From Psychrobacter arcticus 273-4 (GTDB lineage Bacteria; Pseudomonadota; Gammaproteobacteria; Pseudomonadales; Moraxellaceae), in NCBI RefSeq assembly GCF_000012305.1, contig NC_007204.1, forward strand, positions 992,001 through 1,056,000: a stretch of 64,000 nt of DNA, read 5' to 3'. This document shows, one piece after another, positions 3,990 to 60,372 of the stretch; position 1 is the stretch's first letter; every line of letters starts with the position of its first letter. The notes under the pieces are model-generated. The model had not been told where the DNA came from and ran no database searches. It was given only the letters and a program-made list of their open reading frames with translations. A program made the position numbers and the translations under genes.

Positions 3990-4127
3990 TATAGTCGGTG
4001 AAAAGTAATATCGATACAACAGGTACTACTGGTGCAAATTTTTCTTGCTTGCTGTGCCTACGCAGACAGAGGCTGCAAAAAATTTACACCAGCAATACGG
4101 TAGCGACTTTAAAGTATTTCAACTATA
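3990..4127 (+). repeat. 138-bp palindromic element, copy 1
   Basis: Begins TATAGTCGGTGAAAAG and ends TTTCAACTATA, with imperfectly complementary halves (an inner GGTGYAAATTTTT block appears inverted in both arms). The TATA at each end fits insertion at a TA dinucleotide. It lies between metK and nth. This orientation is called A below. Confidence 0.9.
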
Positions 4128-25596: not shown

Positions 25597-25661
25597 GTAT
25601 TCATAGTTGTGTCTAGGTGCCACGGTAATCATCCCAAGCATAAGACACTTAATCAATAGAA

Positions 25662-26489: not shown

Positions 26490-26749
26490 TTTTTTGACAT
26501 AGCATCCTGTAGGATATCTGACTTGAGACGCTCTTCGGCATACATCTTTTTAAGACGAGCATTTTCAACTTCAAGTTCTTTTAAACGCGCAATCAAAGAG
26601 GCATCCATGCCGCCATACTTTGAACGCCAGTTGTAGAAGGTACTTTGACCGACATTGTGCTCGCGGCACAGCTCAGCAATAGGTACGCCTTGTTCTGCTT
26701 GTTTGAGGATGTTGACGATTTGGTTGTCGCTAAAGCGTGTCTTTTTCAT
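26483..26749 (-). CDS. IS3-family transposase OrfA
   Basis: Helix-turn-helix and leucine-zipper protein of 88 residues: [35 protein letters not shown], then the coiled [18 protein letters not shown]. It binds the IS ends. Its last codons hold the slippery run used to reach orfB. AGGAG lies just upstream of the ATG. Confidence 0.93.
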
Positions 26750-26863
26750 AAGAATCTCCTGCTGGTAGTTTAGCAGTTAATCTCTATTTCTAGGTGTTCT
26801 TATTTATTGGGGGGATTACCCCACAAACTATGACGACCTAGAAAATGCTGCTGAGACGATTGC

Positions 26864-35901: not shown

Positions 35902-35920
35902 TGGTACCGGTGGTCGGAAC
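35902..35920 (-). other. tRNA 3'-end fragment, putative island attachment site
   Basis: Read on the - strand this is TTCCGACCACCGGTACCA: the T-arm 3' strand, acceptor 3' strand and CCA of a tRNA, most like a tRNA-Leu. No tRNA body is attached. Integrases often insert at tRNA 3' ends and leave such a partial copy at the distal border. Beyond it the sequence becomes AT-rich and gene content turns to mobile-element functions. Confidence 0.6.
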
Positions 35921-39024: not shown

Positions 39025-39411
39025 ATGGCACATTTAATCGAATCAATGGCATATGTTGGCGAAACCCCTTGGCATGGCTTGGGCAATGAGCTTGCACCCA
39101 AGCAGCCTATTGAAGTCTGGGCCAAGCAAGCAGGTATGGACTGGCGTATTGAATCATCGGACGTTAGCTACATGGCTAATAACGATAAAGGGCATAACTT
39201 GATCTTGCCCTTTGCCGAGCAGAAGGTATTGTACCGTAGCGATAACTTCGAGCCGTTATCCGTCGTCAGTCAACGCTACCAAGAAGTTCAGCCTCGCGAG
39301 ATTCTAGAATTCTATCGTGATCTCACCGAACAGTCTGACTTTGAGCTGGAAACCGCAGGTGTATTAAAGGGTGGTCGTAAGCTATGGGCACTCGCTCGTA
39401 CAGGCCAGTCA
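39025..39411 (+). pseudogene. DUF932 (TIGR03299-type) protein, N-terminal fragment
   Basis: About 129 residues matching the start of DUF932 plasmid/phage-like proteins: MAHLIESMAYVGETPWHGLGNEL, VLYRSDNFEPLSVVSQRYQEVQP and VLKGGRKLWALARTGQS. The frame is cut by an IS at 39412 and ends a few codons inside it. Function of the family is unknown; it is common in integrative conjugative elements. Confidence 0.88.
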
Positions 39412-39428
39412 TGTAGTGGTCAACTAAT

Positions 39429-40271
39429 TTAGGACAGCTGATAAGAGGTTTGGTTAAAATAACGTTTCTCTTTCTCTGCTGGTGATAAATAATCGTTAAA
39501 CGCATGCGGTCTTATGGTTTGATAATAGCCCCAGATATAATCGACAATAGCAGTTTTAGCCTCAGTCATATTTTCATAGCCATTTTTTGGCATCCATTCG
39601 GTTTTAAAGCTTCTAAAGAAGCGCTCAGTCGGAGCGTTGTCCCAACAGTTGCCCTTTCGGCTCATACTATGCGTCATACCACTGCAATCGGCTACTGCTT
39701 TTGCAAACGCCTGGGAGCTATAATGGCTGCCCTGATCTGAATGAAACAACACGCCACTGGGTTTCATTCTGCTGTGATATGCCATTTGTAGCGCTTTGAC
39801 GGTAAGCTTACTATCCGGTGAGCTTGATATGGCAAAGCCCACCAAACGACGGGCGTACAGGTCTAAAACGACGGCAAGATAACACCAACCGCCTTTGATG
39901 CGAATATACGTCACATCCCCCGTCCAGACCTGATTGGGTGCTTCTGGGCTAAAGTTTCGATCTAATATATTGTCATAAATGCTATGTTTTTCATCAGCTT
40001 GTCTGTAGTGATGTCGCTTTATCTGACAGCTTTTGAGTCCCAGTTTTGCCATAAGCTTTGCTACTTTATATCGGCTAAGGGTGATGCCATGCTCATTGTT
40101 TAAGATGGCACGAATCGTTCGAGCCCCTGCCGAGCCGTTTGATTGCTTAAATATTTGGCGAATTAAAGCTTTGATCCTAATTAAGACAAGGCTGATGGAT
40201 TTGGGATTTTTGCCATAGTAATAGCTGCTCTTATTCATGCCAAACAGCTTGAATAGTTGGTTTTTGCTCAC
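39429..40271 (-). CDS. IS3-family transposase OrfB
   Basis: 280 residues with HTH_21 and integrase core: QVWTGDVTYIRIKGGWCYLAVVLD (first D), VLFHSDQGSHYSS (second D), SRKGNCWDNAPTERFFRSFKTEW (E). It resembles the IS51-type group. Translation is probably coupled to orfA by -1 frameshifting; the frame is open back into orfA. Confidence 0.94.
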   Translation of the reverse strand: MSKNQLFKLFGMNKSSYYYGKNPKSISLVLIRIKALIRQIFKQSNGSAGARTIRAILNNEHGITLSRYKVAKLMAKLGLKSCQIKRHHYRQADEKHSIYDNILDRNFSPEAPNQVWTGDVTYIRIKGGWCYLAVVLDLYARRLVGFAISSSPDSKLTVKALQMAYHSRMKPSGVLFHSDQGSHYSSQAFAKAVADCSGMTHSMSRKGNCWDNAPTERFFRSFKTEWMPKNGYENMTEAKTAIVDYIWGYYQTIRPHAFNDYLSPAEKEKRYFNQTSYQLS

Positions 40272-40300
40272 CCGTTTATCCTGCTCTGCCAGCTGGTTTA

Positions 40301-40612
40301 TTAGCGATAGTCGTTTAGATTGTCCAACGCCAGCAGAGCGGAAGCCTTTTTTAAGATGTCGCGCTCCATCCTCAAGCGCTTATTCTCTTTACGCAGTTCT
40401 TGGAGCTCTCGCTGTTCATCCGTTAAAGCATTGCCGACTTTAGGTGCTTGGCCACTCATTTCTTGACGGTATTGACTCAGCCATTTCTGCAAGGTGGATT
40501 TGCCAATGCCAAGTGAGCTTGCCACGTCAGTTATGCTACGGTTGTGATCAATCACTAAGCTTATGGCTTCTAGCTTGAATTCTCGAGTATATTGGTTGCG
40601 TTTTTGGCTCAT
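40301..40612 (-). CDS. IS3-family transposase OrfA
   Basis: 103 residues: QYTREFKLEAISLVIDHNRSITDVASSLGIGKSTLQKWLSQYR is the helix-turn-helix, followed by a zipper RELQELRKENKRLRMERDILKKA that contains the A6G slippery sequence (near 40348-40354). Confidence 0.94.
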   Translation of the reverse strand: MSQKRNQYTREFKLEAISLVIDHNRSITDVASSLGIGKSTLQKWLSQYRQEMSGQAPKVGNALTDEQRELQELRKENKRLRMERDILKKASALLALDNLNDYR

Positions 40613-40677: not shown

Positions 40678-41049
40678 CACAGCTATGAGATGAAGCAGTT
40701 GTCAGAGCGCCGTGTCACTCAAGCGGAAGCGGCTAACTATCTAAGCCGTGTGTTCAACGATCAGGACAATGACATCATTTTATTTAACCGTGCTAAGAAA
40801 GAGAAAGATGCGGTGCCCAATGCCAAAGCGATGAATCAAGTCATGAGCATGTTCAACGGTCAAGGTCGCGGTGCCACACTCGATGCGGCTAGTGATACCG
40901 CCTATGGTTTGCTGTGCAGCATCACTGAGTACGTGGATCATGAACGACGGGCGATGAATACGGACAATCGCCTGAACTCAGCATGGTTCGGTGCTGGCGC
41001 TAAGCTGAAACAAAAAGGTTTGGAGCAATCGCTATTGCTGCTTGCTTAA
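40678..41049 (+). pseudogene. DUF932 protein, C-terminal fragment
   Basis: Continues the DUF932 reading frame after the IS: YEMKQLSERRVTQAEAANYLSRVF through NRLNSAWFGAGAKLKQKGLEQSLLLLA. Compared with family members of about 330 residues, roughly 80-90 residues from the middle are absent, so DNA was lost during or after IS insertion. Unless the IS leaves with repair, no full protein can be made. Confidence 0.85.
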
Positions 41050-43370: not shown

Positions 43371-43486
43371 TTTTTTATGGCTTCAACCAAGGCTAACAGT
43401 CGGACTGTATGGGATGCAGTAAAAAAATATAGGACTCGATAAGTATATGAGGGGAAATGCTCTCATTCACTTACAAGGAGATAATC

Positions 43487-43738
43487 ATGGAAACTTTAAA
43501 CACAGCGCACCCAGTAATCGAGCAATGCAATCATATTCCACAGCTACTGAATATTAAAGATGTTGGTAGCTATACAGGCCTTAGTCGTTCGACTATCTAT
43601 GAGATGGTTAACGAAAAATCTGATCGTTATGATCCAACGTTCCCTAAGAAGGTACAGCTGACACAGGTAAGGGTAGTATGGGTAGCCAGCGAGATTGCAG
43701 AGTGGATTAATAATAAGATTGCTAAGCGCTCAACCTAG
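43487..43738 (+). CDS. AlpA-family helix-turn-helix regulator
   Basis: 83-residue DNA-binding protein with the MerR-like HTH of AlpA: LLNIKDVGSYTGLSRSTIYEMV, a wing DPTFPKKVQLTQVRVVWVASEIAEWI. AlpA proteins switch on integrase or excision in prophages and islands. AAGGAG seven bases upstream fixes the ATG at 43487 rather than the longer open frame. A terminator follows (43747-43777). Confidence 0.88.
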   Translation: METLNTAHPVIEQCNHIPQLLNIKDVGSYTGLSRSTIYEMVNEKSDRYDPTFPKKVQLTQVRVVWVASEIAEWINNKIAKRST

Positions 43739-44104
43739 ATTTATCGAACCGCCTTAAACGTGAAGGGTAGGGCGGTTTATTTTTTTTTGTAAGTTTAGCC
43801 ATTTTTAGCTCATTTAGATAATATCGTTTGAATTGAAACACGCCCTAGTAAAAACCTCTTGTATAAGTCAACGCTAGGGTTTGCAACTACCATTATTGGC
43901 AAAGGGCAATGAAATTTTACTTTCACAAGAGGTATGGTTTTTATTTGTTGCATAAATATTTCTCATATATTACTATCCGTAAATTAGTCGACATTCTTCA
44001 TGATTTAGACTTAGGTTTTCAAGTAAAACTCTAGAAACCGATTATTAATAGATTTGTAAAGGCTATTCACGATTGACTATGAGTAATAAATATTAAGGAA
44101 ATTA
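43739..44104. promoter_or_regulatory. Leader of the defence-like module with nested inverted repeats
   Basis: After the AlpA terminator (stem AACCGCC 43747-43753 with GGCGGTT 43771-43777) there are two inverted pairs: CCCTAG (43843-43848) with CTAGGG (43874-43879), and ACCTCTTGT (43854-43862) with ACAAGAGGT (43925-43933). They are out of register and could be operators, a small RNA or an old junction. No clear promoter is identified; no gene seen. Confidence 0.45.
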
Positions 44105-45163
44105 ATGCAAAACTCTAATACAGCAAGACTAAACGAAGAGATGAATCAAAGTATTAGATCTTCAAACATATTTAAAACTCCTGCCTTTGCTGACAAAAAA
44201 AACTCAAAAACTAATGATAGCGATGAAAATACTATCGTTTATCAAGCTCAAACATCTAAATATCATTTAGATACTGATGTCATTCTGACAACTCATACAC
44301 GTAACGAACTTGAAGAGAGTTTAGCAAAATTAAAATTTCATAAAGTTATCTATGAAGACTGGGGTTTTAGTGAAGTTGATAAACTTGGACGCAGTAGTAT
44401 TTTAAATTTCTATGGAAAACCTGGAACCGGTAAAACTTTAACCGCTGAAGCGTTCGCAGGCCGATTAGATTTGCCCATCATTAAAGTCGGTATAGCTGAA
44501 ATAGAAAGCAAGCTCATGGGAGAAACGTCAAAGAACATACAAAAGGTTTTTCAGGACGCTTATGATCAAAATGCAGTTTTATTTTTCGATGAAGCAGATA
44601 CTTTGCTAGGTAAGCGTTTGTCTTCCGTTACTCAAGGTGTAGACAATGAAATCAATGCTATGCGCTCAACTATGCTTATTGAGTTAGAGAAATTTGATGG
44701 TGTTGTTATCTTTGCGACAAATTTTGCTAAAAACTACGATGAAGCTTTTCGTTCACGTATCACTTATCACGTTGAATTTATACTTCCTGATTTAGACACT
44801 CGCAAAAAGCTTTGGTCAAGAATGTTAGTTGCAAAAATTCCATTGGCTGATGAGAGAGACAGCCTCGTTAATCAATCTGCAGAACTATCAGATGGTTTTT
44901 CAGGACGTGAGATAAGAACTTGTATGCGTTTAGCCCTACCAAAAGCATTAATGCAGCCGGGTGTATTAATTGAAGAGGCAATGTTAAGTGTTGAGCATCT
45001 GATATCAGCTATCGAAAACGTAAGAAAGTCCCAAAGGGAAGTTGGTAGCAGTACGGATACTAGTAGTAAACGCAAATTCGCTGCTCAAGAAGCTTTGATC
45101 GCAAAAAAACTACTAGGTACAACAGATAAATCATTAGATAAAGAAGAATTACTCGAACAATAA
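44105..45163 (+). CDS. AAA+ ATPase, first gene of a Zorya-like module
   Basis: 352-residue AAA+ ATPase of the FtsH/CDC48/spastin-like type. Walker A is GKPGTGKT at residues 104-111, Walker B LFFDEAD at 159-165, sensor 1 FATN near 203, arginine fingers in AFRSRITYHVEF near 215-222, and sensor 2 in GFSGREIRTCMRLAL. About 60 polar residues precede the domain. It would use ATP to remodel a protein partner. AAGGAA five bases before the ATG supports the start. It is followed after 44 bp by the helical protein and the ZorA/ZorB-like genes, all on the same strand, forming one operon. Confidence 0.88.
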   Translation: MQNSNTARLNEEMNQSIRSSNIFKTPAFADKKNSKTNDSDENTIVYQAQTSKYHLDTDVILTTHTRNELEESLAKLKFHKVIYEDWGFSEVDKLGRSSILNFYGKPGTGKTLTAEAFAGRLDLPIIKVGIAEIESKLMGETSKNIQKVFQDAYDQNAVLFFDEADTLLGKRLSSVTQGVDNEINAMRSTMLIELEKFDGVVIFATNFAKNYDEAFRSRITYHVEFILPDLDTRKKLWSRMLVAKIPLADERDSLVNQSAELSDGFSGREIRTCMRLALPKALMQPGVLIEEAMLSVEHLISAIENVRKSQREVGSSTDTSSKRKFAAQEALIAKKLLGTTDKSLDKEELLEQ

Positions 45164-45207
45164 AATAATGATGGTTAGGTAATATCTAATACATTTAGGG
45201 GTCAAAA

Positions 45208-46503
45208 ATGGGTTTGTTTAGTTATGTATATTCGCGGGTAGCCAGTGCAGTTAGTAGCGCTGTTTCTTACGCTTCAGAAAAGGTCAGTCAGGGTCTATCT
45301 TGGGCAAGAGAAAAGGCAGCTAAGGCTTGTGATTGGATAGCCGAAAAAGGCGAAAGTTTTATTGATAAAGTTAAAGACGTCTATAAAAAAGTAAAGCCTT
45401 TTTTACAGAAAGTGAAACCGTGGCTTGAAAAAGCAGCACTACTACTTGCTCCATTCCCATGGCTGAGCTCAGCGTTAATGACCACAGCTAAAGCAATTGA
45501 CGTATTATTAGCGTTAGAAAACAGCCCAGTGTTACATGCTTTAGAAAAAGCAGCTAGGAAGACTATTAAGTTGGCTCAGTTTATACAAGAAAGATATCTA
45601 ACACCAGAAGAAGTAGAGGAAGCTAAAGAGAACCGTGATGCCTTTATGCAAGCTGAGCAACAGTATGAGTCACAATTAAGTGAAGAGCAGCAAAAAGCTT
45701 TACAACTTAATGAGATGTTGAATAATTATGGAATTTTAAAAGTAGAGTTAAGAGACGTGCTAGAGATGGGTGTCATTGACTTCCAGCACTACTTGAGACT
45801 AAGAGCTACCCAAAAACTATTAGATATGACAGAAAAAAAGATTATGACGGTTGAAAGTATTAATGATATCAACAATGACGACATTTATTTGATTAAAACA
45901 GCAGAAAGTCTCCTCTCTACTGCTCAACTTTCTGATAGCGATGCTATTAGATTAGATAGCATCATCCAGCAACGTTTTGGTAAATCACTTATACCTTTCG
46001 TCTTTGAAGAATTGATGGTGGTGTGGGTTGAAAAGCAGCAAACTTTAGAACAAGACTGGACAGAATTGAGTAAAAAGCTAGCCAAGGACAGAGTACTAAA
46101 AACTCGTTTAGATGTTGCAAAGCGTACTTCAGAGCTAACAGAAGAAGAAACTGAGGTTTATAGTGAGTTGCTGACCAAAATGAGTGGAGAACAAACTAAG
46201 CTTACTCGTTTAGACAGCGAACGTCGCTCAATGAAAAGCTATGTTTATGCTGCAGAAGGCTTTATGCAGATTCTAGAAAAAGATGATGTAACTTTGGAAG
46301 AGGAAGACAAAGATTACCTTCTCGAGGATAGTGAGGAAATTGCCAGCATTATTATGAGAGTAGCACAAAATAATATTGCTTGGGAGTCTTTGACTAGTGA
46401 TGAGCAAAGCCTAATTACAGACTACGCTAATATTTTTGAGGCAGAAGGTAGAGCGCGTGCAGACAAATTAAAACACGAAATTGAAGTGGGAGTAGCAGCT
46501 TAA
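45208..46503 (+). CDS. Helical protein of unknown function in the Zorya-like operon
   Basis: 431-residue protein that I do not recognise. The first 70 residues are repeated amphipathic helices rich in Lys/Ala (AREKAAKACDWIAEKGESF, VKPFLQKVKPWLEKAALL), followed by one moderately hydrophobic stretch around 75-105 that could insert in or lie on a membrane. The rest is charged and mostly coiled-coil-like. The stop overlaps the start of the motor gene by one base, indicating translational coupling. It occupies the place of the effector or adaptor in the operon. Confidence 0.75.
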   Translation: MGLFSYVYSRVASAVSSAVSYASEKVSQGLSWAREKAAKACDWIAEKGESFIDKVKDVYKKVKPFLQKVKPWLEKAALLLAPFPWLSSALMTTAKAIDVLLALENSPVLHALEKAARKTIKLAQFIQERYLTPEEVEEAKENRDAFMQAEQQYESQLSEEQQKALQLNEMLNNYGILKVELRDVLEMGVIDFQHYLRLRATQKLLDMTEKKIMTVESINDINNDDIYLIKTAESLLSTAQLSDSDAIRLDSIIQQRFGKSLIPFVFEELMVVWVEKQQTLEQDWTELSKKLAKDRVLKTRLDVAKRTSELTEEETEVYSELLTKMSGEQTKLTRLDSERRSMKSYVYAAEGFMQILEKDDVTLEEEDKDYLLEDSEEIASIIMRVAQNNIAWESLTSDEQSLITDYANIFEAEGRARADKLKHEIEVGVAA

Positions 46504-48275
46504 TGAAAGTAGCAGAGATTGGTGCATTCTTAAATCCTTTTGGCGAAACGCTGTCTACTATTTTTGTAGTGAGTCTCATTACTTTAACCATAGCTACTGT
46601 TGTATGGTTACTGATCTCAGCTAAAGAAGCTAACTGGGAAGCCAACTGGTATGGTGGCGACTTAAATGACGATACTAATAATTTGGCAGGCGAACATGGT
46701 TCTGTGCATGAATTAAGCCAAGCCATCGCTACAAAAGCTGAAAAAGTGGCTGAAATCATGCCTAGTATGCTGTTGATTGTGGGTTTGCTTGGAACATTTT
46801 TGGGGTTAGGTATAGCACTTAACAAAGCGTCTACTGTACTTGCCATGGCAGACACAGCTGGAATGGATTCAGCCATGACTCAATTAATGGGTTTGATGGA
46901 TGGTTTGGGAGCCAAATTTAAAACCTCTACTTGGGGTATCCTTTGTTTCATTATTCTTAATTTGCTCTTCAATATATTTGGATTCCAAGAGAAACGTCTT
47001 GTATGGGCAGTTAAAAAAGTTCGCGAAGAAGCACAAGCGAAAGAAATGGTTTTGAATAGTAAGGAGCTAGAAAGACATCAAGTAATGATTGAGACACTAA
47101 AAAGTATTGATAATAATGCGCAGCAACATAGCCAAATACTTGTAGATAGTATTATGTCATTACAAAAAGAAAGTGCTAAAGAGTTAAATAATAGCTTCTT
47201 GATATTCGGACAAATCAGAAACGATATCAACAATAATAATCGAAATTTGGTTGATAGCTTTAATAAAGCACATGAGCATAGTTTATCCAAGTATGAAGCA
47301 CTGTTTGGTCAAGTACAAAGTAGCCTCAATAACAACAATAAAATAGCCACGAAAAATGCCAAAGACAATATTACTGAACTACAGGAGATTGCTAGCTACA
47401 ACAAAGCCACTCAAAAATCCATGCAAGATTTTGTTGAACAAACGGTTGAGAGTATGGCGTCAATTGGGAAATCTGCAGACAAAATGGCTGTAGCAGCAAC
47501 TGCTGTCGGTAGTTCTGCAGAGGGGTTAAATGGGGTTGTCAAAAACCTACGCGATGAGCTGGAAGGCGTTATGTCAATGATTAAGCAAGATTTGTCAGAC
47601 ACTATTAATAATATGGGTGACAATTTTGAGAGCAACATGGCAACGATGTCAAAAAATATGAGTAAGGCGACTTTAGGTATCTCAAAAGCTGTTGATGAGT
47701 TATCTACCAGTGTCGACAAAACAATGACTGATGTGACTGGTATTATTGGCGAATCAATGGATTTACAGCGTAAATCTGCTAACGAATTTACAGTTACTAG
47801 TGAAGCTTTAAATAGTCAAGTATTTGAAATGACTGACTTGGTTAAACAGTTATCAGGTGATATAACCAGTGGACTAAAAGCAGTATCTGAAAGCGGACGT
47901 CGAATGAAATCACTTGATTCGCGTTATGAAAAATACTCAGAACTTATTGAAAAAATTACAGATACTAACATTCAGCTATTAAATGATAATCAGCACATAA
48001 CCAGCTACTTGCCACGAATCATTGATTCTATACCAAACCTGAGCGACAATATTAATGATACCTTCTTGGAATCTGTAAAAATACAACGTAATTCTACTGA
48101 TATTTTTGATCAGCTATCAAGTGATATCAAAAATGCATTAACAGTGATATCTCACAGTGCAGATAGGTTAGAAGTATTAAATTCGCGCTATGAAAATTAT
48201 TCTATATTGGTAGAGAGCATCACCCAGAGTAATCAAAAATTAATTGCTAAAATTGATGAAAAAACTATGGCATAA
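46503..48275 (+). CDS. ZorA-like MotA/TolQ/ExbB motor protein
   Basis: 590 residues. A first membrane helix lies near residues 18-40. Two more follow: MPSMLLIVGLLGTFLGLGIAL (about 88-108) and STWGILCFIILNLLFNIFGF (about 140-160), with the MotA/ExbB proton-channel signature between them. About 420 residues of cytoplasmic coiled coil follow, containing many Asn-rich and Lys/Ser/Asp heptads, reminiscent of the long ZorA tail. Such proteins form a pentameric stator around a ZorB-type dimer and use the proton motive force. The tail also contains a diverged internal repeat (SLDSRYEKYSELIEKIT and VLNSRYENYSILVESIT). Confidence 0.87.
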   Translation: MKVAEIGAFLNPFGETLSTIFVVSLITLTIATVVWLLISAKEANWEANWYGGDLNDDTNNLAGEHGSVHELSQAIATKAEKVAEIMPSMLLIVGLLGTFLGLGIALNKASTVLAMADTAGMDSAMTQLMGLMDGLGAKFKTSTWGILCFIILNLLFNIFGFQEKRLVWAVKKVREEAQAKEMVLNSKELERHQVMIETLKSIDNNAQQHSQILVDSIMSLQKESAKELNNSFLIFGQIRNDINNNNRNLVDSFNKAHEHSLSKYEALFGQVQSSLNNNNKIATKNAKDNITELQEIASYNKATQKSMQDFVEQTVESMASIGKSADKMAVAATAVGSSAEGLNGVVKNLRDELEGVMSMIKQDLSDTINNMGDNFESNMATMSKNMSKATLGISKAVDELSTSVDKTMTDVTGIIGESMDLQRKSANEFTVTSEALNSQVFEMTDLVKQLSGDITSGLKAVSESGRRMKSLDSRYEKYSELIEKITDTNIQLLNDNQHITSYLPRIIDSIPNLSDNINDTFLESVKIQRNSTDIFDQLSSDIKNALTVISHSADRLEVLNSRYENYSILVESITQSNQKLIAKIDEKTMA

Positions 48276-48287
48276 GGGTGTATTTAA

Positions 48288-48923
48288 ATGCAAAAAAAAC
48301 CAAGTGAATGGATATCTATTGCAGATTTGATGTCGGGAGTCATGGCAGTGGTTATGCTACTGCTAGTCATTTCTGTCCTTCAAAATACTTATGCTGAAAT
48401 TAAGCATAAACAAGTAATGGAAAACAGTCAACAAAGTGACCGTCAGAAAATAGCTACCTTATTAGAGGATATTCAGACATCAGTTGCCACACAAGGTGCA
48501 GGTAATCTGATTGACTTTAATATGGAACAAAGCAAAATCACACTAAAAGATAATGTCTTTGCTAGGGGTAGCGCTTGTATTACCCCAGAAGCAAAAACGG
48601 CATTTAATAATATAGAAGATAAAATAACGAGTTTTTTGCAACAGTCTTCGAATGCTAAAATATTTGTAGAAGGCCATACGGATAATATTCCAGTATCACA
48701 ACCTGTGACAGATTATCGACGTTTTTGCACAGTATATGATGATAACTATACGCTATCAGCAGCAAGAGCTAGAGAAGCTCGTAAACTTCTAGTTGGGCAG
48801 TTAGATACTTCTATAGCTAAGCGTATTGTCGTAGCTGGTTATGGTGACTCTCAGCCTATTAAAGGAATATCTCCTGAAGATGATGCCAATAGACGTGTTG
48901 AAGTAAGACTAGCATTAGAATAA
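48288..48923 (+). CDS. ZorB-like OmpA/MotB-domain protein
   Basis: 211 residues. A short N-terminus leads into one membrane helix with the proton-carrying aspartate: SEWISIADLMSGVMAVVMLLLVI (Asp at residue 13). A linker and a C-terminal OmpA/MotB peptidoglycan-binding domain follow: IFVEGHTDNIP, TLSAARAREARKLL, VVAGYGDSQP and NRRVEVRLAL. It should pair with the ZorA-like protein, anchored to the cell wall. It lies 12 bp downstream of that gene and is the last of the four. Confidence 0.9.
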   Translation: MQKKPSEWISIADLMSGVMAVVMLLLVISVLQNTYAEIKHKQVMENSQQSDRQKIATLLEDIQTSVATQGAGNLIDFNMEQSKITLKDNVFARGSACITPEAKTAFNNIEDKITSFLQQSSNAKIFVEGHTDNIPVSQPVTDYRRFCTVYDDNYTLSAARAREARKLLVGQLDTSIAKRIVVAGYGDSQPIKGISPEDDANRRVEVRLALE

Positions 48924-48927
48924 AGAA

Positions 48928-49116
48928 GTGAAAAAGCTCATCGACGAGAAGGCTAAATACACTGACTGGAACAAGCGTGACGACATCAGAGCTGAGCTAC
49001 AGTTTGATTTGATGGTGTTGCTTGATGAATGGGGTTATCAACCTGTTGACTCAAAAGAGGTCTATAAAGAGATATTTGAGCAGACTGAGAATTTTAAGAA
49101 GCATAGGGTGGTTTAG
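48928..49116 (+). pseudogene. Orphan copy of the hsdR C-terminus
   Basis: Encodes about 62 residues matching the last 60 of the intact HsdR at 60060-60248 (AKYTDWNKRDDIRAEL, SKEVYKEIFEQ). The last 80 bp are almost identical in DNA, including the bases just after the stop codon; the 5' part is more diverged. It begins with GTG 5 bp after the ZorB-like stop and has no functional domain of its own. It is best read as the remnant of another type I restriction locus. Confidence 0.85.
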
Positions 49117-49149
49117 TTATAATTACACAGAGTTTGGGAAAGTTTCCTG

Positions 49150-49194
49150 GTAACCCTACCAAGCATAAGACACTTATCCAATAGAATTAAGCTA
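49150..49194. repeat. Solo left end of an IS407-like element
   Basis: About 45 bp starting GGTAACC that closely match the left end of the IS at 25624 (shared AAGCATAAGACACTTA and AATAGAATTAAGCT). The rest of the IS is missing, so this is a relic. Confidence 0.8.
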
Positions 49195-49265
49195 CTATAT
49201 TATATAAGTAGCTTCTAATCACGGTCTATTTTTAACAACCGGTAAAATTTAAAGAAGAGTTGTTT

Positions 49266-49745
49266 ATGAGTTTTTTGATAGGTCCATTTTTAAAAAGTTT
49301 TATTGATAACGTGATAAAAGATACAGTCATTCCTGTCAAGGGTAGCGTTGTCTATTGTGGATTATTCGGATATGCAGAACATTCTGGGATATATATAGGA
49401 GACAATAAAATTGTACACCTTGATGGTTCTGGAATAATTGAAGTTGTTTCTCCTCAGCAGTTTATAGAGAGACTGAGTGGGCTTAACCCTGCTATGAGCA
49501 TTTATGTGTCATGCAATGGCTCATCCGCAACAGGAACAAATACGATTGCAAAAAGAGCTAAGAAAATGGTCGGTAAAAGTAGGAAGTATCACGTTATTTT
49601 AGATAATTGCCATCAGTTCACATCAGGATGTATAACAGGAAATTTTGACAACGCAGATAATTTTTTGTGGATGTTAAAGAGCACAGCTGGTAATAAACTC
49701 AGTACTAATAAATGGAGAGTTTGGGAAAGAAAGTACAGTAGTTAA
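49266..49745 (+). CDS. LRAT-domain (NlpC/P60-like) protein
   Basis: About 159 residues with a lecithin:retinol acyltransferase-like domain, a circularly permuted papain fold. The histidine motif EHSGIYIGDNKIVHLDG comes first, and the cysteine motif ILDNCHQFTSGC later, as in bacterial LRAT proteins that act as acyltransferases or phospholipases/proteases. An N-terminal hydrophobic stretch could associate with membranes. The ATG at 49266 has GAAGAG upstream. It is followed closely by a small membrane protein, probably its partner. Within the island cargo it may be an effector. Confidence 0.78.
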   Translation: MSFLIGPFLKSFIDNVIKDTVIPVKGSVVYCGLFGYAEHSGIYIGDNKIVHLDGSGIIEVVSPQQFIERLSGLNPAMSIYVSCNGSSATGTNTIAKRAKKMVGKSRKYHVILDNCHQFTSGCITGNFDNADNFLWMLKSTAGNKLSTNKWRVWERKYSS

Positions 49746-49823
49746 GTGAGCATCTTGAGAATGTATCTATGTAATAAGATAGTGTATATAATTTATTTTC
49801 TAAACTATATTTGGGATTTATTA

Positions 49824-50309
49824 ATGTTACCTGTTGCCGCTATACCTATGATAAAAGTTGCCGTAGCTTCTACTACAACTAAAGAACTACTGAAAAACGC
49901 CCCAGCAGCGCTTGCGTTTTTGAAGACATCGGAACCCAAAGATTGGTCAGAATCCGATATGAAACTAGTAGAACAATTTTATAATAAGCTTGGCGATTTT
50001 AGCGCTCAAAACGGACAAACTCTTGTAAATAATGCTATACGCTTTCAAGAACTATCACATGCTCAAATAATGGAAACGTTTGCAGAGCTTGATCTATCAA
50101 AGTTAGATTCAGTCGGTACAGCTAAAGTAGCCGAAACAACTATTAAAGAAAACCATAAAACGTCAAGATTTAATACTCTCGCAACTGTTGTCGGTGTCAC
50201 AGTTGGTGTCTTAGCTGCATTTTCTTCAGCCAACAATGCTTCAAATAATAACTATAAACTTAGACGCCCTAGAAGCGTCTCAGAAAAGTTATTTGGCGAT
50301 AAAAAGTAA
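49824..50309 (+). CDS. Small membrane-associated protein paired with the LRAT gene
   Basis: About 161 residues from the ATG at 49824, which has GGGA eight bases upstream; an open frame extends to 49746. The N-terminus is hydrophobic (LPVAAIPMIKVAVAS), the middle is acidic and helical, and a hydrophobic segment FNTLATVVGVTVGVLAAFSSA lies near residues 117-137, followed by a basic tail. No family recognised. It lies about 80 bp after the LRAT gene. Confidence 0.6.
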   Translation: MLPVAAIPMIKVAVASTTTKELLKNAPAALAFLKTSEPKDWSESDMKLVEQFYNKLGDFSAQNGQTLVNNAIRFQELSHAQIMETFAELDLSKLDSVGTAKVAETTIKENHKTSRFNTLATVVGVTVGVLAAFSSANNASNNNYKLRRPRSVSEKLFGDKK

Positions 50310-50378
50310 AATAAAAAGTATGTAACTGCTCACAACCCTTTGTTAATAAAAAAGCCACCTTGCAAAATGCTAAAAAAG

Positions 50379-50424
50379 TGAACTGACCCCCATAAGTTGT
50401 GTCCAACTTAAGGGGGTCAGTTCA
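50379..50424. repeat. Back-to-back IS-like inverted ends
   Basis: TGAACTGACCCCC (50379-50391) and its inverted copy GGGGGTCAGTTCA (50412-50424) with AAGTT/AACTT inside, resembling the two ends of an IS3-type element joined with almost nothing between. It sits within a larger imperfect terminator-like pair (AAAAAAGCC at about 50348 and GGCTTTTTTT at 50431). Likely an IS excision scar or very short remnant. Confidence 0.6.
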
Positions 50425-50465
50425 CATGAGGGCTTTTTTTAGAATTATTATTCATCTACTATTTA

Positions 50466-51458
50466 TTAAGTACAGTTGTTCATATACTGTGCTTCTGTTA
50501 AATCTGGGTTGCGACAGTCTGTTAATCCATCATACCCATCCTCATAACCTGAACGTTCGATAACGAATTTACGCAAATCAGCCTCTGTGCCACCACCAAG
50601 TGTAAAATCATTTAATAAATCTATCATGTCTTGTGATGTTTCAATATCATTGTCAACAAGATAATCAATGCGTGCTGCTTGTGCTGGTGTTAGTGGTCCC
50701 GTTATTTCTACAGCGTTAGCACCTGTTTCATTATTGTAGTAGTCGTCATTCAAAGTATCAGAAGTAACCTCACTTACGTCTGATATTGATGTCATGTCAG
50801 TATCCTGCTGCTCACCTAGATCTTGGAATACATCATCATAGGCTTCACTTGCACTCTCTTCATCAGCCCAGCCTAAGTCAGCGACGGGTGATTCTTCGAC
50901 GTTCTTATTAGACTTTTTATCTTTTGAGTCTAACGAAAAAGAAATCCTTGTGACTTTCCAGCTAAGGCCGTCTCTATGCATAATCACATCTAATGACTCA
51001 TCAGAATCATCTGTATCAATGATCTGAACTTTGAATCGATTAAATGACAGGTAGCCGGCTTTATAATCAATATCCTCATTTTTGGCTTCAGGCTTATCTT
51101 CAGACGTGTCATTATTTAAGTCAAAATCTAATTTTTGCCCTTGAAGCATTAATGCAACACCATCAGGTGTGACCACACCATCAATGATTGGGTCTATCAT
51201 TGCAGCGGCTAACATAGTGCCTAAAGCCTCAAAGCCATCTTGCTCATCACTTGCAGCAAGCTCTTCAACCATAGCGGCTTTGACTTGATCCTTCATGCTC
51301 TGCTTAACGCTAGGGAAATCAATATAACCTGAAAGCTTATCTGCGTCTTTCTGTTCAGCAGCATTTTTAATGTTATACAAAGCTATATATGGTGAAGCGT
51401 AAAGATAAATCGCAAATATAACTAACAAGCCAGCCAACCAAGGTAAAAGCTTTTTCAA
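50466..51458 (-). CDS. DUF2939 domain protein
   Basis: 330-residue protein with one N-terminal membrane helix (LLPWLAGLLVIFAIYLYASPY), followed by a DUF2939 region: YNIKNAAEQKDADKLSGYIDFPSVKQSMKDQV and a glycine/alanine stretch up to about residue 110. The rest is acidic and low in complexity, with a compact Cys-containing end (GYDGLTDCRNPDLTEAQYMNNCT). The function of the family is not known. It is the only - strand gene in the cargo section. Confidence 0.75.
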   Translation of the reverse strand: MKKLLPWLAGLLVIFAIYLYASPYIALYNIKNAAEQKDADKLSGYIDFPSVKQSMKDQVKAAMVEELAASDEQDGFEALGTMLAAAMIDPIIDGVVTPDGVALMLQGQKLDFDLNNDTSEDKPEAKNEDIDYKAGYLSFNRFKVQIIDTDDSDESLDVIMHRDGLSWKVTRISFSLDSKDKKSNKNVEESPVADLGWADEESASEAYDDVFQDLGEQQDTDMTSISDVSEVTSDTLNDDYYNNETGANAVEITGPLTPAQAARIDYLVDNDIETSQDMIDLLNDFTLGGGTEADLRKFVIERSGYEDGYDGLTDCRNPDLTEAQYMNNCT

Positions 51459-52226: not shown

Positions 52227-53816
52227 ATGGCTAAAACACCTGCAAATAAGAACGATCAAACCAAAGACGGTCGCTTTGAAGAAGCCCTTTGGGATGCTGC
52301 TAACAAGCTACGAGGTAGCGTCGAATCATCAGAATATAAGCACATTGTTTTAAGCCTGATTTTCTTAAAATTCATCAGCGATACTTTTGAGCAGCAGCGC
52401 CAAAAGCTTATTGATACAGGTTATGAAAAGCATATCGACATGGTGCAAGCCTATACCAAAGATAACGTGTTCTATTTGCCAGCAGAGAGCCGTTGGAGCT
52501 TTATCCAGCAAAATGCCAAGCAAGAAGACATCGCCCTTAAAATCGATACGGCGCTTAGCACGATTGAAAAGACCAACCAATCACTGAAAGGCGCATTGCC
52601 TGACAACTACTTCTCGCGTCTTGGTTTGACTGCCAGTAAGCTTGCCGCCTTGATTGATGTGGTGAATAACATCGATACCATTGGTAATCCAGAAGAAGAC
52701 ACCGTCGGGCGCGTGTATGAGTATTTCTTAGGCAAGTTTGCCGCGACTGAAGGTAAAGGCGGTGGTGAGTTCTATACGCCCAAATCTGTGGTCAATCTGA
52801 TAGCAGAAATGGTTGAGCCGTATCAAGGCAAAATCTATGACCCATGCTGCGGCTCCGGCGGTATGTTCGTCCAGTCGATTAAGTTCATTGAGAGTCACCA
52901 CGGCAATACCAAAGACGTGTCTATCTATGGGCAAGAGTACACCAGTACCACTTATAAGCTTGCCAAGATGAACCTTGCCATTCGTGGTATCTCTAGCAAC
53001 TTGGGTGATGTGGCTGCCGATACCTTCTTTAAAGATCAGCACGAAGACTTAAAAGCTGACTTCATCATGGCAAACCCCCCCTTTAACCAAAAGGATTGGC
53101 GTGCGTCTGATGAGCTGGTCGATGATCCACGCTGGGCAGGCTATCCGACACCGCCGACAGGTAATGCTAACTATGCTTGGATATTGCACATGATATCTAA
53201 GCTCTCTGAGCATGGTACAGCAGGTTTCGTACTGGCAAACGGTTCTATGTCTACCACTACCAGTGGTGAAGGTGAAATACGCCAGCAGATTATCGAAAAC
53301 GATCTGGTCGATTGTATGATTGCGCTACCGGGTCAGCTATTTTATACCACCCAAATACCGGTGTGCTTATGGTTCATCAATAAAGACAAACAAGCCAAGT
53401 CAGCAGATAGCAAAGCGCGTGGATTGCGTAATCGTAGCGGTGAGACGCTGTTTATTGATGCTCGCGCTATCGGCAGCATGATTAGCCGTACCAATAAAGA
53501 ACTCACGAAAGATGACATTGAAGCGATTGCCAAGACTTATCATGCATGGCGCGGTGAGAAAGAAGCGGGCGGCTATGAAGCTTATACCGATGAAGCAGGC
53601 TACTGTAAATCTGCCACTCTAGACGATATGAAAGCCAATGATTATGTACTCACGCCTGGGCGCTATGTCGGTGCTGCGGCAATAGAAGATGATGGCATAT
53701 CGTTTGAGACTAAGATGTTAGAACTCAGCCAAACGCTATATGCACAGATGCAAGCGTCTGAAAAGCTAGATGCGACCATTCGTCAAAACTTGGAGGTGTT
53801 AGGTTATGGTGAGTGA
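52227..53816 (+). CDS. hsdM: Type I restriction-modification methyltransferase subunit HsdM
   Basis: N6-adenine methyltransferase subunit of 529 residues. An HsdM N-terminal domain (LWDAANKLRGSVESSEYKHIVLSLIFLKF) is followed by the SAM-binding motif YDPCCGSGGMFVQ near residue 205 and the catalytic NPPF near residue 283 (IMANPPFNQKDW). It methylates host DNA at the site chosen by HsdS. The start has AAAGAAAA upstream. It overlaps hsdS by 11 bp, indicating coupled translation. Confidence 0.96.
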   Translation: MAKTPANKNDQTKDGRFEEALWDAANKLRGSVESSEYKHIVLSLIFLKFISDTFEQQRQKLIDTGYEKHIDMVQAYTKDNVFYLPAESRWSFIQQNAKQEDIALKIDTALSTIEKTNQSLKGALPDNYFSRLGLTASKLAALIDVVNNIDTIGNPEEDTVGRVYEYFLGKFAATEGKGGGEFYTPKSVVNLIAEMVEPYQGKIYDPCCGSGGMFVQSIKFIESHHGNTKDVSIYGQEYTSTTYKLAKMNLAIRGISSNLGDVAADTFFKDQHEDLKADFIMANPPFNQKDWRASDELVDDPRWAGYPTPPTGNANYAWILHMISKLSEHGTAGFVLANGSMSTTTSGEGEIRQQIIENDLVDCMIALPGQLFYTTQIPVCLWFINKDKQAKSADSKARGLRNRSGETLFIDARAIGSMISRTNKELTKDDIEAIAKTYHAWRGEKEAGGYEAYTDEAGYCKSATLDDMKANDYVLTPGRYVGAAAIEDDGISFETKMLELSQTLYAQMQASEKLDATIRQNLEVLGYGE

Positions 53817-55080
53817 TTGGAATGAGGACATTTTATCTAATATCGCTGAAATAATTGACTCTAGACATAAAACTCCTGTTTATTCTGACTCAGGCTATCC
53901 TATGGTTCGAGTTGTGGATGTTAACGGTGGTGCTCTAAACCTAGAAAGTACAAAAAAAGTTTCTGATGATATATATGAGGATTTCTCTAGAGGAAGAGAT
54001 CCACAGATTGGAGATTTAGTAATTTCTCGTGTTGGAAGCTATGGTGTTGTCTCCTATGTGAACTCAAATGAAAAGTTTTGTTTAGGTCAAAATACTGCAT
54101 TTATAATTCCTAAAATAAACAGTCGATTTTTATACTATCAACTTATTTCACCTTTTGTTAAATGGCAAATAGAGCAATTTGTTGTTGGAGCTGTACAAAA
54201 GACAATTAGCTTGAAAAGTATTCGCCAGTTCCAAATAAAACTACCTCCAGTAACAGAACAAAAAGCCATTGCCCATATTCTCGGTTCTTTAGATGACAAA
54301 ATCGAGCTAAACCGCCAAATGAACGAGACGCTAGAAGCGATGGCGCAGGCGTTATTTAAGAGCTGGTTTGTGGATTTTGATCCAGTGATTGATAATGCGC
54401 TTGCGGCTGGTAATGCTATTCCTGATGAATTTATCGAACGTGCCGAGCAGCGTAAAAAAATTGAGAGAAAAGAGAGCTCGGATATTCAGGGTTTATTCCC
54501 TGATGAATTTGAGTTTACGGAAGAGATGGGTTGGATTCCGAAGGGGTGGAACAGTGGCACGCTAGGGGATTTTGCAATATTAGGAAATGGTAAAACATCA
54601 CCTGATAGAGCCGTTGGTGATATTCCAGTGTTTGGCTCGAATGGAAAGATTGGTGACTGTGATGAGTCAAATAGAGACAATACTATAATAATCGGCAGAG
54701 TCGGTAGTTACTGCGGTAGTTTGCAGTACTATCCTTTCAAATGTTGGATAACTGATAATGCAATGTCAGCGGAAATGAAAAATAAAGATCATAATATTTA
54801 TCTGTTTCAACTTCTCTCAAGAGATAATTTGAATGACCGAAGAACGGGTAGTGGGCAACCATTACTTAATCAAAGTATTTTACGTTCTATTAAGACTATT
54901 ACGCCCTCTGTACCTTTAATAGATGAGTATTCAAGAATAGCAAATAGCTTTTATAAAAAAATTAATAAGGCTAATAGAAATAATGCAGCCCTCGCCAAAC
55001 TCCGTGACACCCTTTTACCTAAATTAATGTCAGGTGAGCTACGCATTGCAGATGCTGCGGCGATGGTCGAGGACGTATAA
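53806..55080 (+). CDS. hsdS: Type I restriction-modification specificity subunit HsdS
   Basis: 424 residues with two target-recognition domains (about 1-150 and 240-390), separated by the conserved helical spacer LPPVTEQKAIAHILGSLDDKIELNRQMNETLEAMAQALFKSW, and a closing helix LRDTLLPKLMSGELRI. The first domain and the second are AT-rich compared with the spacer, the pattern expected where recognition domains are exchanged. The recognised sequence cannot be predicted. Its stop directly abuts the RhuM-Fic start. Confidence 0.94.
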   Translation: MVSDWNEDILSNIAEIIDSRHKTPVYSDSGYPMVRVVDVNGGALNLESTKKVSDDIYEDFSRGRDPQIGDLVISRVGSYGVVSYVNSNEKFCLGQNTAFIIPKINSRFLYYQLISPFVKWQIEQFVVGAVQKTISLKSIRQFQIKLPPVTEQKAIAHILGSLDDKIELNRQMNETLEAMAQALFKSWFVDFDPVIDNALAAGNAIPDEFIERAEQRKKIERKESSDIQGLFPDEFEFTEEMGWIPKGWNSGTLGDFAILGNGKTSPDRAVGDIPVFGSNGKIGDCDESNRDNTIIIGRVGSYCGSLQYYPFKCWITDNAMSAEMKNKDHNIYLFQLLSRDNLNDRRTGSGQPLLNQSILRSIKTITPSVPLIDEYSRIANSFYKKINKANRNNAALAKLRDTLLPKLMSGELRIADAAAMVEDV

Positions 55081-56073
55081 ATGAGCGTAAACTCTGAACA
55101 TAACCACGCAAAAATAGAAATCTATCAAAGCCGTGATGGTCAAGCACAGGTAGATGTCCGTTTTGAGCAGGAAACGGTATGGTTGTCACAGGCACAAATG
55201 GTGGCGCTGTTTGGTCGTAACCAGTCCGTGATTTCACGCCATATTAACAATGCCTTAAGTGATGAAGAAATCTATGAAAAAAGCAATATGCAAAAAATGC
55301 ATATTGCAAATTCTGACCGACCTGTGGTCTTTTATGACTTGGATGTGGTTATCTCGGTTGGCTACCGTATCAAGTCACCTCAAGGCGTACAATTTAGACG
55401 TTGGGCGACCCAGCGTTTGCGTGACTATCTCGTGCAAGGCTACGCCATCAATGAGCAGCGCTTTGATAAAAACGCTGCCGAGTTAAAACAAGCCTTAGCA
55501 TTGATAAAAAAGACCGCCCAAAGCCCTGAGCTAAAAACGGATGAAGGACGCGGCTTGATTGAGATTATCAGCCGCTATACGCAAACTTTTTTATGGCTAC
55601 AGCGTTATGACGAGGGGTTACTTGACGACCCAGCAGGGCAAGTGGGCGGCGTATTGCCGAGCACTGATGACGCTATGTCCGCCCTGAACCAGCTAAAAGC
55701 GCAGCTGATGGAACGCGGCGAGGCGACCGACTTGTTTGCCAAGCCTCGCGGTGACGGCTTGGACAGTGTACTGGCAAACCTTGAGCAAACCGTGTTTGGT
55801 GAGCTGGCTTATCCGACTATCGAGAGCAAAGCGGCGCATTTACTCTATTTTATGGTCAAAAATCATGTCTTTACTGATGGCAATAAGCGCAGTGGCGCGT
55901 TTTTGTTTGTCGATTTTTTGCATCGTAATAACCGCTTGCTTAACAGCGAGGGCGACATGGTGATTAATAATACCGGACTGGCTGCTTTAACATTATTAGT
56001 CGCTGAATCTGATCCCAAGCAAAAAGAAACCCTGATCAAGCTCATTATGAATATGCTGTCATTAGAGGGCTGA
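55081..56073 (+). CDS. RhuM-Fic fusion protein
   Basis: 330 residues. The N-terminal half is a RhuM (virulence protein-like, DNA-binding) domain: TVWLSQAQMVALFGRNQSVISRHINNAL, VVFYDLDVVISVGYRIKSPQGVQFRRWA. The C-terminal half is a Fic/Doc domain with the motif HVFTDGNKRSGAFLF near residue 262, which has Val in place of the usual Pro and should still bind a nucleotide. Fic proteins transfer AMP or other groups onto targets. It is translated directly after hsdS, an arrangement seen in many type I systems, and may be a guard or regulator. Confidence 0.88.
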   Translation: MSVNSEHNHAKIEIYQSRDGQAQVDVRFEQETVWLSQAQMVALFGRNQSVISRHINNALSDEEIYEKSNMQKMHIANSDRPVVFYDLDVVISVGYRIKSPQGVQFRRWATQRLRDYLVQGYAINEQRFDKNAAELKQALALIKKTAQSPELKTDEGRGLIEIISRYTQTFLWLQRYDEGLLDDPAGQVGGVLPSTDDAMSALNQLKAQLMERGEATDLFAKPRGDGLDSVLANLEQTVFGELAYPTIESKAAHLLYFMVKNHVFTDGNKRSGAFLFVDFLHRNNRLLNSEGDMVINNTGLAALTLLVAESDPKQKETLIKLIMNMLSLEG

Positions 56074-56988: not shown

Positions 56989-57065
56989 TTTAGCTTTGGT
57001 TTAGCCGTGGACTGGCATATTAATTGTTGAGAAAGATAATACAGAATAATAAAAAGGACTTATCA

Positions 57066-60000
57066 TTGAAATTCACCGAAGACAGACTTGAGCAAGCCAT
57101 TATTGAGCTACTAGCAGCGGAAGGCTATCCGCACACGGTTGGTGAAGCGCTTGACCGCAACCCTGATGATGTGCTGATTAAGTCTGACCTTCGACAGTTT
57201 CTAGCGACCCGTTATAGAGATGACTTGATCACTGATTACGAGATTGAGTCCATCATTCATAAGCTCGAATACCTTCCTGCCTCCGACCTGTACGAAACCA
57301 ACAAAGCCATCATGAAGTTTGTCGCTGATGGCTTTTTACTCAAGCGTGAAGACCATACCCAAAAAGACTTATACATCCAGCTGATTGATTATGAGGCACT
57401 CGATAACAATCGCTTTCGCATCGTCAATCAGATGGAAATACAAGGTTTTGAGCGGCGTATTCCTGATGGCATTCTCTATATCAATGGCTTACCACTGGTG
57501 GTGTTTGAGTTTAAGAGCAGCATCCGTGAAGATGCCACCATGTTTGATGCCTATACCCAGCTGACCACCCGTTATAAGCGCGATATTCCAGAGCTGTTTA
57601 AATACAACGCCCTATGCGTCATCAGTGATGGGGTCAACTCAAAAATGGGGTCATTCTTTGCCCCTTATGAGTTTTACTATTCTTGGCGCAAAGTGACGGG
57701 CGATGAGAAGCTTGAGAAGGATGGCATCCATTCCTTACTAACGATGATAAGCGGCTTATTTGATAAAGCACGTTTGCTTGATGTCATTCGAAACTTTATC
57801 TATGTGCCTGACAAGTCAAGCAAGGAAGAGAAAATCGTTTGTCGTTATCCACAGTATTATGCCGCCACCAAACTGTTTGACAATATTAAGCGCCATATGA
57901 AAGTGCTGGATACAAACGGCAAGTTTGATGAGAGTGATGCTTTACGAGACGGTAAAGGTGGTACGTACTTTGGCGCGACTGGCTGTGGTAAGAGCTTTAC
58001 CATGCTATTTCTAGCCCGTCTGCTGATGAAAGACGCTGCGCTTGGTAGTCCAACCATTATCTTAATCACTGACCGCACCGATTTGGATGATCAGTTATCA
58101 AAAACCTTTACCAATGCCAAAACCTATATTGGTGATGACGAAATCATCAGTGTCGAGAGTCGAGCTGAGCTACGAGAGAAGCTGAAAGGGCGTAAAAGTG
58201 GTGGCGTGTTCCTGACGACCATTCATAAGTTCACCGAAGACTTAGCCTTACTGACCGAGCGTACCAACGTCATCTGTATCTCTGATGAAGCGCACCGTAG
58301 CCAAATCAATCTCCAACAAAAAATCACCGTCACCGAAGATGGGGTCAAAAAGACCTACGGCTTTGCTAAATACCTGCATGATTCATTGCCTAATGCTACT
58401 TACGTCGGCTTCACAGGTACGCCAATTGATGCCACCCTAGATGTCTTTGGTCCAGTCGTTGATAGCTATACCATGGTCGAGTCGGTATTCGATGAAATCA
58501 CTGTGCGTATTGTCTATGAAGGTCGCGCTGCCAAAGTACTCCTTGATAGCAAGCAGCTCGATGAAGTAGAAAAGTATTACAAGCACAGCGTAGAATCGGG
58601 CGCCAATGAGTACCAGATAGATAAAAGCAAAAAAGCCATGGCGAGTATGTCTACCATACTAGTTGATCCTGACCGCATCCGCGCCATCGCAGAAGACTTC
58701 GTTCAGCATTATGAAGCGCGCGTTGCTGAGGGCACCACACAGAAAGGCAAGGCGATGTTTGTCTGTAGTAGCCGTGAAGCCGCCTATCAGTTATATAAAG
58801 ACATCATAGAGCTGCATCCTGAATGGGATGAGATCAGAGCGTGCGAGGAAGGCTCAACCTTATCTGAAAGCGACAAGAAAAAAGTCATGCCTATAGAGCG
58901 AGTCAAAATGATCATGACTCGTAACAAGGACGATGAAAAAGGCATGTGGGACAATCTTGGTAATAAAGACTACCGCAAAGAGCTCGACCGCCAGTTTAAA
59001 AACGGCAAGTCTAACTTTAAGATCGCCATCGTCGTCGATATGTGGCTTACAGGCTTTGACGTGCCATTTCTAGATACCATCTACATTGATAAACCGCTGC
59101 AAAAGCATAGCCTGATTCAAACCATCTCACGGGTCAACCGTAAGTTCGAAGGCAAAGAAAGCGGCTTAGTGGTTGATTACATTGGCATCAAAAAGCAGAT
59201 GAACCTTGCGCTCTCGCATTACACCGGCGGTCAGATTCAAAACTTAGAAGATATCCAAAAATCAGTCGTGGTAGTGAAAGACCACTTAGACCTACTGGAT
59301 ACGGTCTATCATAAGTTCGACTCTAGCCTTTACTTCAACGGCACGCCACTAGAGCAGCTCAATTGCTTAAACGCGGCGGCTGACTTTGCCCTGCAATCCA
59401 AAAAGCTAGAAAAGCGTTTTATGGATTTAGCCAAGCGTCTTAAGTCTGCCTATGATATTTGCGTGGGTAGTGAGGCGCTAACCAAGGCGCACAAGGACAA
59501 GATTCATTACTACTTAGCTATTCGTACCATCATCTTTAAAATCACCACCGGCGGCGCGCCTGACGTTGAACAGATGAACCAAAAGGTACGTGATCTGGTT
59601 AAAGATGCGCTAATGAGTGACGGGGTAGAAGAAATCTTTAAGCTCGGTGATAACACCGACGGTGAAATCGATATCTTCGATGAAGACTACTTAGCCAAGC
59701 TTGAGGTGATTAAGCAGCCCAATACCAAGTTAGAGCTGCTACAACAGCTGCTCGCAAAAGCCATTGGTGAGCTGAAAAAGACCAACAAGGTGAAGGGTGT
59801 CGATTTCAGTAAAAAAATGAATGCGCTCGTTGAGAAGTATAACGACCGCGACGAGAACGATATCTTAAACTCTAAGGTCTTCAATGATTTTACTGACCAT
59901 ATTATCGACTTAATACATGGCGTGAAGAAAGAGATGCAAGCTTTTGGTGAGATGGGCATTGATATCGAAGAAAAAGCTTTCTATGATATTTTGCTACTGT

Positions 60001-60248: not shown

Positions 60249-60268
60249 TTATATTTACACAGATTTAG

Positions 60269-60372
60269 TATGACCTCTTTGAGTTTGAAAATGCTGTAAC
60301 GATAATTTGACACTGTCAGGCATGGCTGCCTGACTCAAGTAAATCAGCCTCCGATATAGTCGGGGCGGTTCA
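60269..60372 (+). pseudogene. IS3-type element relic, 3' end
   Basis: About 100 bp homologous to the end of the relic at 32593 in the opposite orientation: a frameshifted piece of the OrfB C-terminus (FEFEN-like) and the IS end finishing AGTCGGGGCGGTTCA at 60372. Confidence 0.8.

Follow-up and report, generated by a model that had tools for sequence, protein, structure and literature searches.

In the genome of Psychrobacter arcticus 273-4, a Zorya-like operon is followed directly by the 3′ end of a type I restriction gene, hsdR, and an intact hsdR lies 11 kb downstream. How did a second hsdR end come to stand behind the operon, does it have a function, and do the two copies mark a site at which defense genes are exchanged? 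We analyzed a 64,000-nucleotide window around the locus (G000:C1:992001–1056000 of the 2.65-Mb genome; window coordinates are used unless the genome is named) together with a comparison set of 105 Psychrobacter genomes. Judged from sequence comparison, it is quite likely that the 213-bp segment represents a second type I hsdR reduced to a nonfunctional relic, lying in the cargo slot of a genomic island and joined illegitimately to ZorB.

An Orphan hsdR Tail behind ZorB

The orphan tail (48922–49134, +) consists of the last ~65 hsdR codons, the stop codon and 18 bp of native 3′ flank, and extends from the ZorB stop codon (TAA, 48921–48923) to 18 bp past the hsdR stop. BLASTN aligned it without gaps to the end of the intact hsdR (60054–60266, +) with 183 identities in 213 bp (86%; E 2e-69), and the same native flank is recognizable in three relatives (G052, G093 and G012). 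The intact gene (57024–60248, +) has 1,074 codons and matches PADLOC REase_I with 1241 bits as well as Pfam HSDR_N, SWI2_SNF2 and T1RH-like_C. Within the orphan, a residual 62-aa reading frame with a GTG start (48928–49116, +) appears in the ORF list, with no evidence of being a gene; it matched the last part of T1RH-like_C (PF11867; E 2.4e-14, profile positions 273–328 of 329) and positions 967–1025 of 1029 in PADLOC REase_I. An earlier note had recognized a 62-codon HsdR C terminus at this place and its match to the end of the intact gene, and both observations are borne out. In hsdR numbering, the orphan covers residues 1009–1074 only, and Pfam found the HSDR_N nuclease and SWI2/SNF2 motor domains in the intact copy and not in the orphan.

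The identity between the two copies is uneven: it is 78% over the first ~112 bp, reaches 96% in the final 80 bp and stands at 84% across the 19 bp past the stop. The earlier note had described this gradient correctly and had ascribed it to drift in the 5′ part of the tail, but comparison with other alleles places the change in the intact gene. Over the first part, the orphan is 95% identical to the allele of G052 and 91% identical to those of G018, G088 and a third hsdR copy at 863 kb in the same genome, against 78% to the window hsdR. When compared with the consensus of eight close alleles, the intact hsdR contains a divergent patch of ~280 bp (59856–60134, +) with differences at 87 of 279 positions, as opposed to 54 of 921 outside it, a contrast reached by none of 2,000 permutations; at the protein level, residues ~943–1047 of the intact HsdR resemble more distant lineages. 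The gradient thus stems from the divergent patch and not from decay of the tail, and the window hsdR, rather than the orphan, is the odd copy, which by this pattern acquired a foreign patch; of a particular relationship between the two window copies the pattern gives no sign. Near-identical ends with a drifted middle can have such an origin. The best candidate donors matched at only 79–80% from position 70 on, and the tail shared by G026 and G027 matched at 85% over the second half; no donor was found among the 105 genomes or plasmids. Gene conversion between the two window copies was considered and rejected, as the final 80 bp of the window hsdR show no preference for the orphan (96%) over several other alleles (95–97% to the 863-kb copy, G012, G018, G088 and G093).

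Over the tail as a whole, G052 and the 863-kb copy show 92–93% identity to the orphan; the 863-kb copy is truncated at its 5′ side, and its end (93%) is nearer to the orphan than the window hsdR is. A tree of the tails, too short a sequence to give resolution, did not pair the orphan with the window hsdR. The orphan has two private changes, both altering an amino acid and by themselves too few to give a selection test any power. Taken together, the orphan is an ordinary Psychrobacter hsdR allele, close to those of G052 and the 863-kb copy and with no special kinship to the window hsdR.

The Genomic Island and Its Variable Slot

The locus is a tRNA-integrated genomic island. A tRNA-Leu(CAA) gene (genome positions 1060465–1060551) adjoins a P4-type tyrosine integrase of 454 aa with Arm-DNA-bind_3 and Phage_integrase domains. 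At the far end, 17 bp of the tRNA 3′ end are repeated (attL, 35902–35918, +), and the partner attR lies beyond the window (genome positions 1060465–1060481). With the left flank joined to the tRNA side as the query, contiguous matches were obtained in at least nine genomes (91% identity in G089; also G030, G024, G061, G013, G092, G033, G053 and G045). Contiguous matches across the join represent the unoccupied site, and the island therefore spans from 35902 to genome position ~1060481, or ~32.6 kb.

The left module of the island encodes YagK/YfjJ, DUF932, a YqaJ exonuclease, a Gp3-like directionality factor and AlpA, and it has relatives in 60 of the 105 genomes. An IS3-type element (39429–40612) interrupts the DUF932 gene (39025–39432 and 40690–41049). 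No satellite packaging or capsid-size domains were found among the island ORFs scanned against Pfam and PADLOC, which were some of the total.

The limits of the sequence common to relatives define a variable cargo slot of ~6.5 kb (43789–50322, +): shared island sequence ends at 43785–43798 in many relatives and restarts at 50323 (G088) or 50431/50434. The left anchor of the slot is an AlpA-type regulator (43457–43738, +; PF05930, E 1.5e-15), and the right anchor is a DUF2939 gene (50466–51458, −; PF11159) that neighbors hsdMSR, a linkage also found in G088, G018 and G016. The slot contains a pair of ATPase genes together with IS genes in G018 and copper genes (read from translated ORFs) in G088; in G098 it carries the Zorya-like operon of the window, behind which come an IS relic and a type I locus that is unrelated. 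The window's own cargo includes an LRAT/NlpC-P60-like protein (49269–49745, +; PF04970, E 1e-11), which has family relatives but no close DNA match within the genus. Four genomes with both anchors adjacent (G017, G047, G004 and G021) were rejected as empty slots and provide no clean ancestor, the DUF2939-like gene beside AlpA being reduced there to its C-terminal part.

IS remnants are present in and beside the slot. A 45-bp relic of an IS3-family element end (49149–49193, −) begins 14 bp past the end of the tail homology and matches, at 89% identity, the outermost 45 bp of complete copies that encode OrfA/OrfB, one of which lies in the window at 25624–26816. In the terminator after DUF2939, we read an inverted repeat (50376–50427, no strand assigned) resembling two IS3-type ends a few base pairs apart with the interior lost; it is missing from the G088 terminator and is possibly a minimal internal-deletion derivative. 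A separate family of ~140-bp repeats with 92–99% identity, in appearance a MITE or REP-type element, occurs at 3990, 5830, 10708, 14552, 20484, 23875, 35662, 51584 and 51910 and also near the 863-kb hsdR relic.

The type I locus next to the slot comprises hsdM (52227–53816, +; PADLOC MTase_I, E 1e-185), hsdS (53806–55080, +; PADLOC Specificity_I) and the intact hsdR, followed by an IS3-associated fragment (60273–60372, −) that is found at the same place in G018, G088 and G093. Between hsdS and hsdR lies a gene for a RhuM/Fic-type protein (55081–56073; PADLOC PDC-S23 candidate, E 5e-134), common to G016; G018, G088, G052 and G012 have another gene there. G018 and G088, which belong to two other species, have the DUF2939–hsdMSR unit at the corresponding island position but lack an upstream tail, and the unit recurs in a different context in G016. 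Because the unit also follows the slot in G018 and G088, the intact hsdR is an island resident, and the stretch from 49 to 60 kb does not form a unit of cargo. The earlier note had taken the two hsdR ends for direct repeats bounding such a cargo; the natural edge is at ~50.32–50.43 kb. Campbell-type insertion of an hsdMSR-bearing circle is ruled out by the same synteny. The tail indicates turnover of cargo in the AlpA–DUF2939 slot of this widespread Psychrobacter island by illegitimate joins near IS remnants, with the adjoining hsdMSR staying in place.

The Zorya-like Operon and Its Junction with the Tail

The operon upstream of the tail consists of four genes (44105–48923). The first encodes an IetA-like AAA ATPase (44105–45163, +; PADLOC IetA, E 6e-34; Pfam AAA) and the second a 431-aa all-helical protein of no known family (45208–46503, +), which is kept in the operon in 43 of 53 ZorB loci. 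The third and fourth encode a ZorA-like, MotA-type protein (46503–48275, +) and a ZorB-like, MotB/OmpA protein with an OmpA domain (48288–48923, +); these matched the PADLOC models with E values of 1e-13 and 1e-20, respectively, yet fell far below the NCBIfam cut-offs. The 431-aa protein had no match in PADLOC, Pfam or NCBIfam, and its structural model (pLDDT 76) matched no PDB entry at E ≤ 0.001. PADLOC detected no ZorC, ZorD, ZorE, ZorF or ZorG in the two genes accompanying the ZorAB pair. The complete set is found in 42 of 53 other proteobacterial ZorB loci, and on plasmids the operon gave only a weak 404-bp match to one Paraburkholderia plasmid. In a literature search that covered papers outside subscription, we found no published description of the set. 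The four-gene ZorAB operon may thus be a candidate for an undescribed Zorya-like type; it is of more interest than the tail behind it and is directly testable.

At the ZorB/hsdR junction (48920–48925, +), the ZorB stop codon is fused to hsdR codon ~1010 with a 4-bp overlap, TAAA. The comparison involves the zorB end of G005, AAATAAATCT, the hsdR of G052, TGTCTAAAGAAG, and the window, GAATAAAGAAG; in other excerpts of the same joint, the hsdR of G052 reads TGTCTAAAGAAGTG and the window GAATAAAGAAGTG, TAAA being common to both parents. As the ZorB side shares only TAAA and has no hsdR homology at the crossover, the join appears to be illegitimate and not homologous, with the caveat that a 4-bp overlap can occur by chance. 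None of the 53 other ZorB loci, which come from many proteobacteria, has the tail after ZorB, and neither do G098 and G005. The exact junction was not found in IMG/VR, and the plasmid search gave no match spanning it.

Other hsdR Relics in Psychrobacter

The hsdR tail is present in 27 of the 105 Psychrobacter genomes, mostly as part of full genes. At one chromosomal site, G054 has a full hsdMSR, whereas G026 and G027 retain only the last 230 bp, with ~6.7 kb lost and the flanks collinear; this comparison demonstrates that type I loci in Psychrobacter can be lost down to tails. The remaining tail in G026 and G027 has an open frame of 101 codons. The copy at 863 kb, flanked on both sides by IS-type ORFs, starts at residue 603; the other relics start at residues 771 (G064:C2), 991 (G064:C3), 998 (G026/G027) and 1009 (window). 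The G064:C2 relic contains stops and the G064:C3 relic a stop. The 5′-shortened copies in G093 and G102 are located close to contig ends and were excluded from the relic count. Private changes alter the amino acid in both cases in the window relic and in all four in the G026 relic; those of intact genes are mostly silent. Ahead of the G064:C3 relic (L083) lie three very large ORFs (1488, 2840 and 1261 aa).

The five independent relics all retain the 3′ end, and a single comparable case of an hsdM 5′ relic was found (G085); a bias toward 3′ relics is possible, though not established. Three of the five (window, G026/G027 and G064:C3) break within residues 991–1010, and in a simulation of uniform breaks a clustering of three of five breakpoints within 19 residues had p ~0.01, for a threshold set after viewing the data. 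That cargo change in Psychrobacter preferentially uses the last ~70–80 hsdR codons as a joint, with breakage or rejoining favored there, seems to us improbable.

Origin of the Tail

If the tail is what remains of a second hsdR, the arrival of the Zorya-like operon or a later deletion would have removed hsdM, hsdS and hsdR codons 1 to ~1009. The joining step would most likely have been end joining or slippage over TAAA onto the second hsdR, and the tail would have persisted since nothing removed it. It probably does nothing; at most, it may serve weakly as a substrate on which RecA-dependent recombination occasionally deletes the 11 kb separating the copies. With the frame open for 62 codons and two private changes only, its decay is not proven.

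The earlier note had proposed an exchange site at which one type I locus was replaced by the Zorya-like module. The exchange site and the R gene cut to a tail and joined to the operon are upheld; that the second locus formerly stood in this slot is something we infer. Such replacement in place has, in our estimate, about an even chance of being correct. A search of the relatives for a full hsdR of the orphan's family inside the slot found none, which agrees better with a second version of the same explanation, differing only in the place of the join. Here, the operon and the tail were joined elsewhere, on a plasmid or another island, and entered the slot as a single piece of cargo that also included the IS3 end and the LRAT gene. 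Psychrobacter plasmids do carry related hsdMSR loci, and the IS3-end relic lies immediately beside the tail. No composite contig was found, however, and the lack of the junction in IMG/VR and among plasmids makes joint arrival rather unlikely, if a serious contender.

A more distant reading, also raised in the earlier note, makes homologous recombination at hsdR 3′ ends the route by which the 49–60 kb block entered or can leave. The block is flanked by 213-bp direct repeats that share one perfect run of 43 bp, and one contig of G064 likewise combines an intact hsdR with a second hsdR tail of like orientation (89% identity over 432 bp, 3′ flank included). Against this, G018 and G088 have the DUF2939–hsdMSR unit at this island position without the upstream tail, its left edge lies ~1.2 kb inside the repeat-bounded block, the likeness of the last 80 bp is common to several other hsdR alleles, and ZorB brings no hsdR homology to the join. 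With the orphan not specially related to the window hsdR, we regard recombination at shared ends as quite improbable. Highly implausible is a real small gene, such as a decoy or regulator that derives from the C-terminal domain of HsdR and is translated together with ZorB: the frame is open, its GTG lies 4 bp past the ZorB stop and G026 and G027 also keep an open tail, but no conserved independent gene was found when one was sought, the tail is absent after ZorB in 53 loci, the G026/G027 tail is plainly a leftover of the locus intact in G054, private changes in the relics alter amino acids where those of intact genes are mostly silent, and the G064 relics contain stops.

The tail is best understood as the remnant of a second hsdR, a small fossil of one past cargo change: it would be ordinary gene debris and no recombination device.

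Comparison with Known Systems

The orphan resembles type I restriction-modification hsdR genes of the HindI-like C-terminal family (PF11867) in its last ~65 residues, stop codon and 3′ flank. It differs from a functional type I HsdR in that the nuclease and the motor are missing and only a small part of the C-terminal domain is left, and it would be unable to serve as an R subunit.

Zorya types have been given as I (ZorCD), II (ZorE) and III (ZorFG) only (PMC11890865). The operon resembles these types in its ZorA- and ZorB-like membrane pair, but in place of ZorCD, ZorE or ZorFG the pair is accompanied by an IetA-like AAA ATPase and the helical protein of 431 aa.

The island has the P4-type integrase, AlpA and small high-turnover slot between two conserved genes known from P4-like satellite hotspots (PMC9122126). 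Unlike those, it has no packaging genes recognized in the tested ORFs, and its 6.5-kb slot also takes nondefense cargo, such as the copper genes of G088. As in the Escherichia coli immigration control region and the tRNA leuX hotspot (PMC12707154), variable defense content lies between fixed anchor genes, and like leuX the island is bounded on one side by a tRNA with a site-specific integrase. In contrast to both, the anchors are AlpA and DUF2939, the setting is a Psychrobacter tRNA-Leu(CAA) island, and what appears to be a relic of earlier cargo is still readable in the slot.
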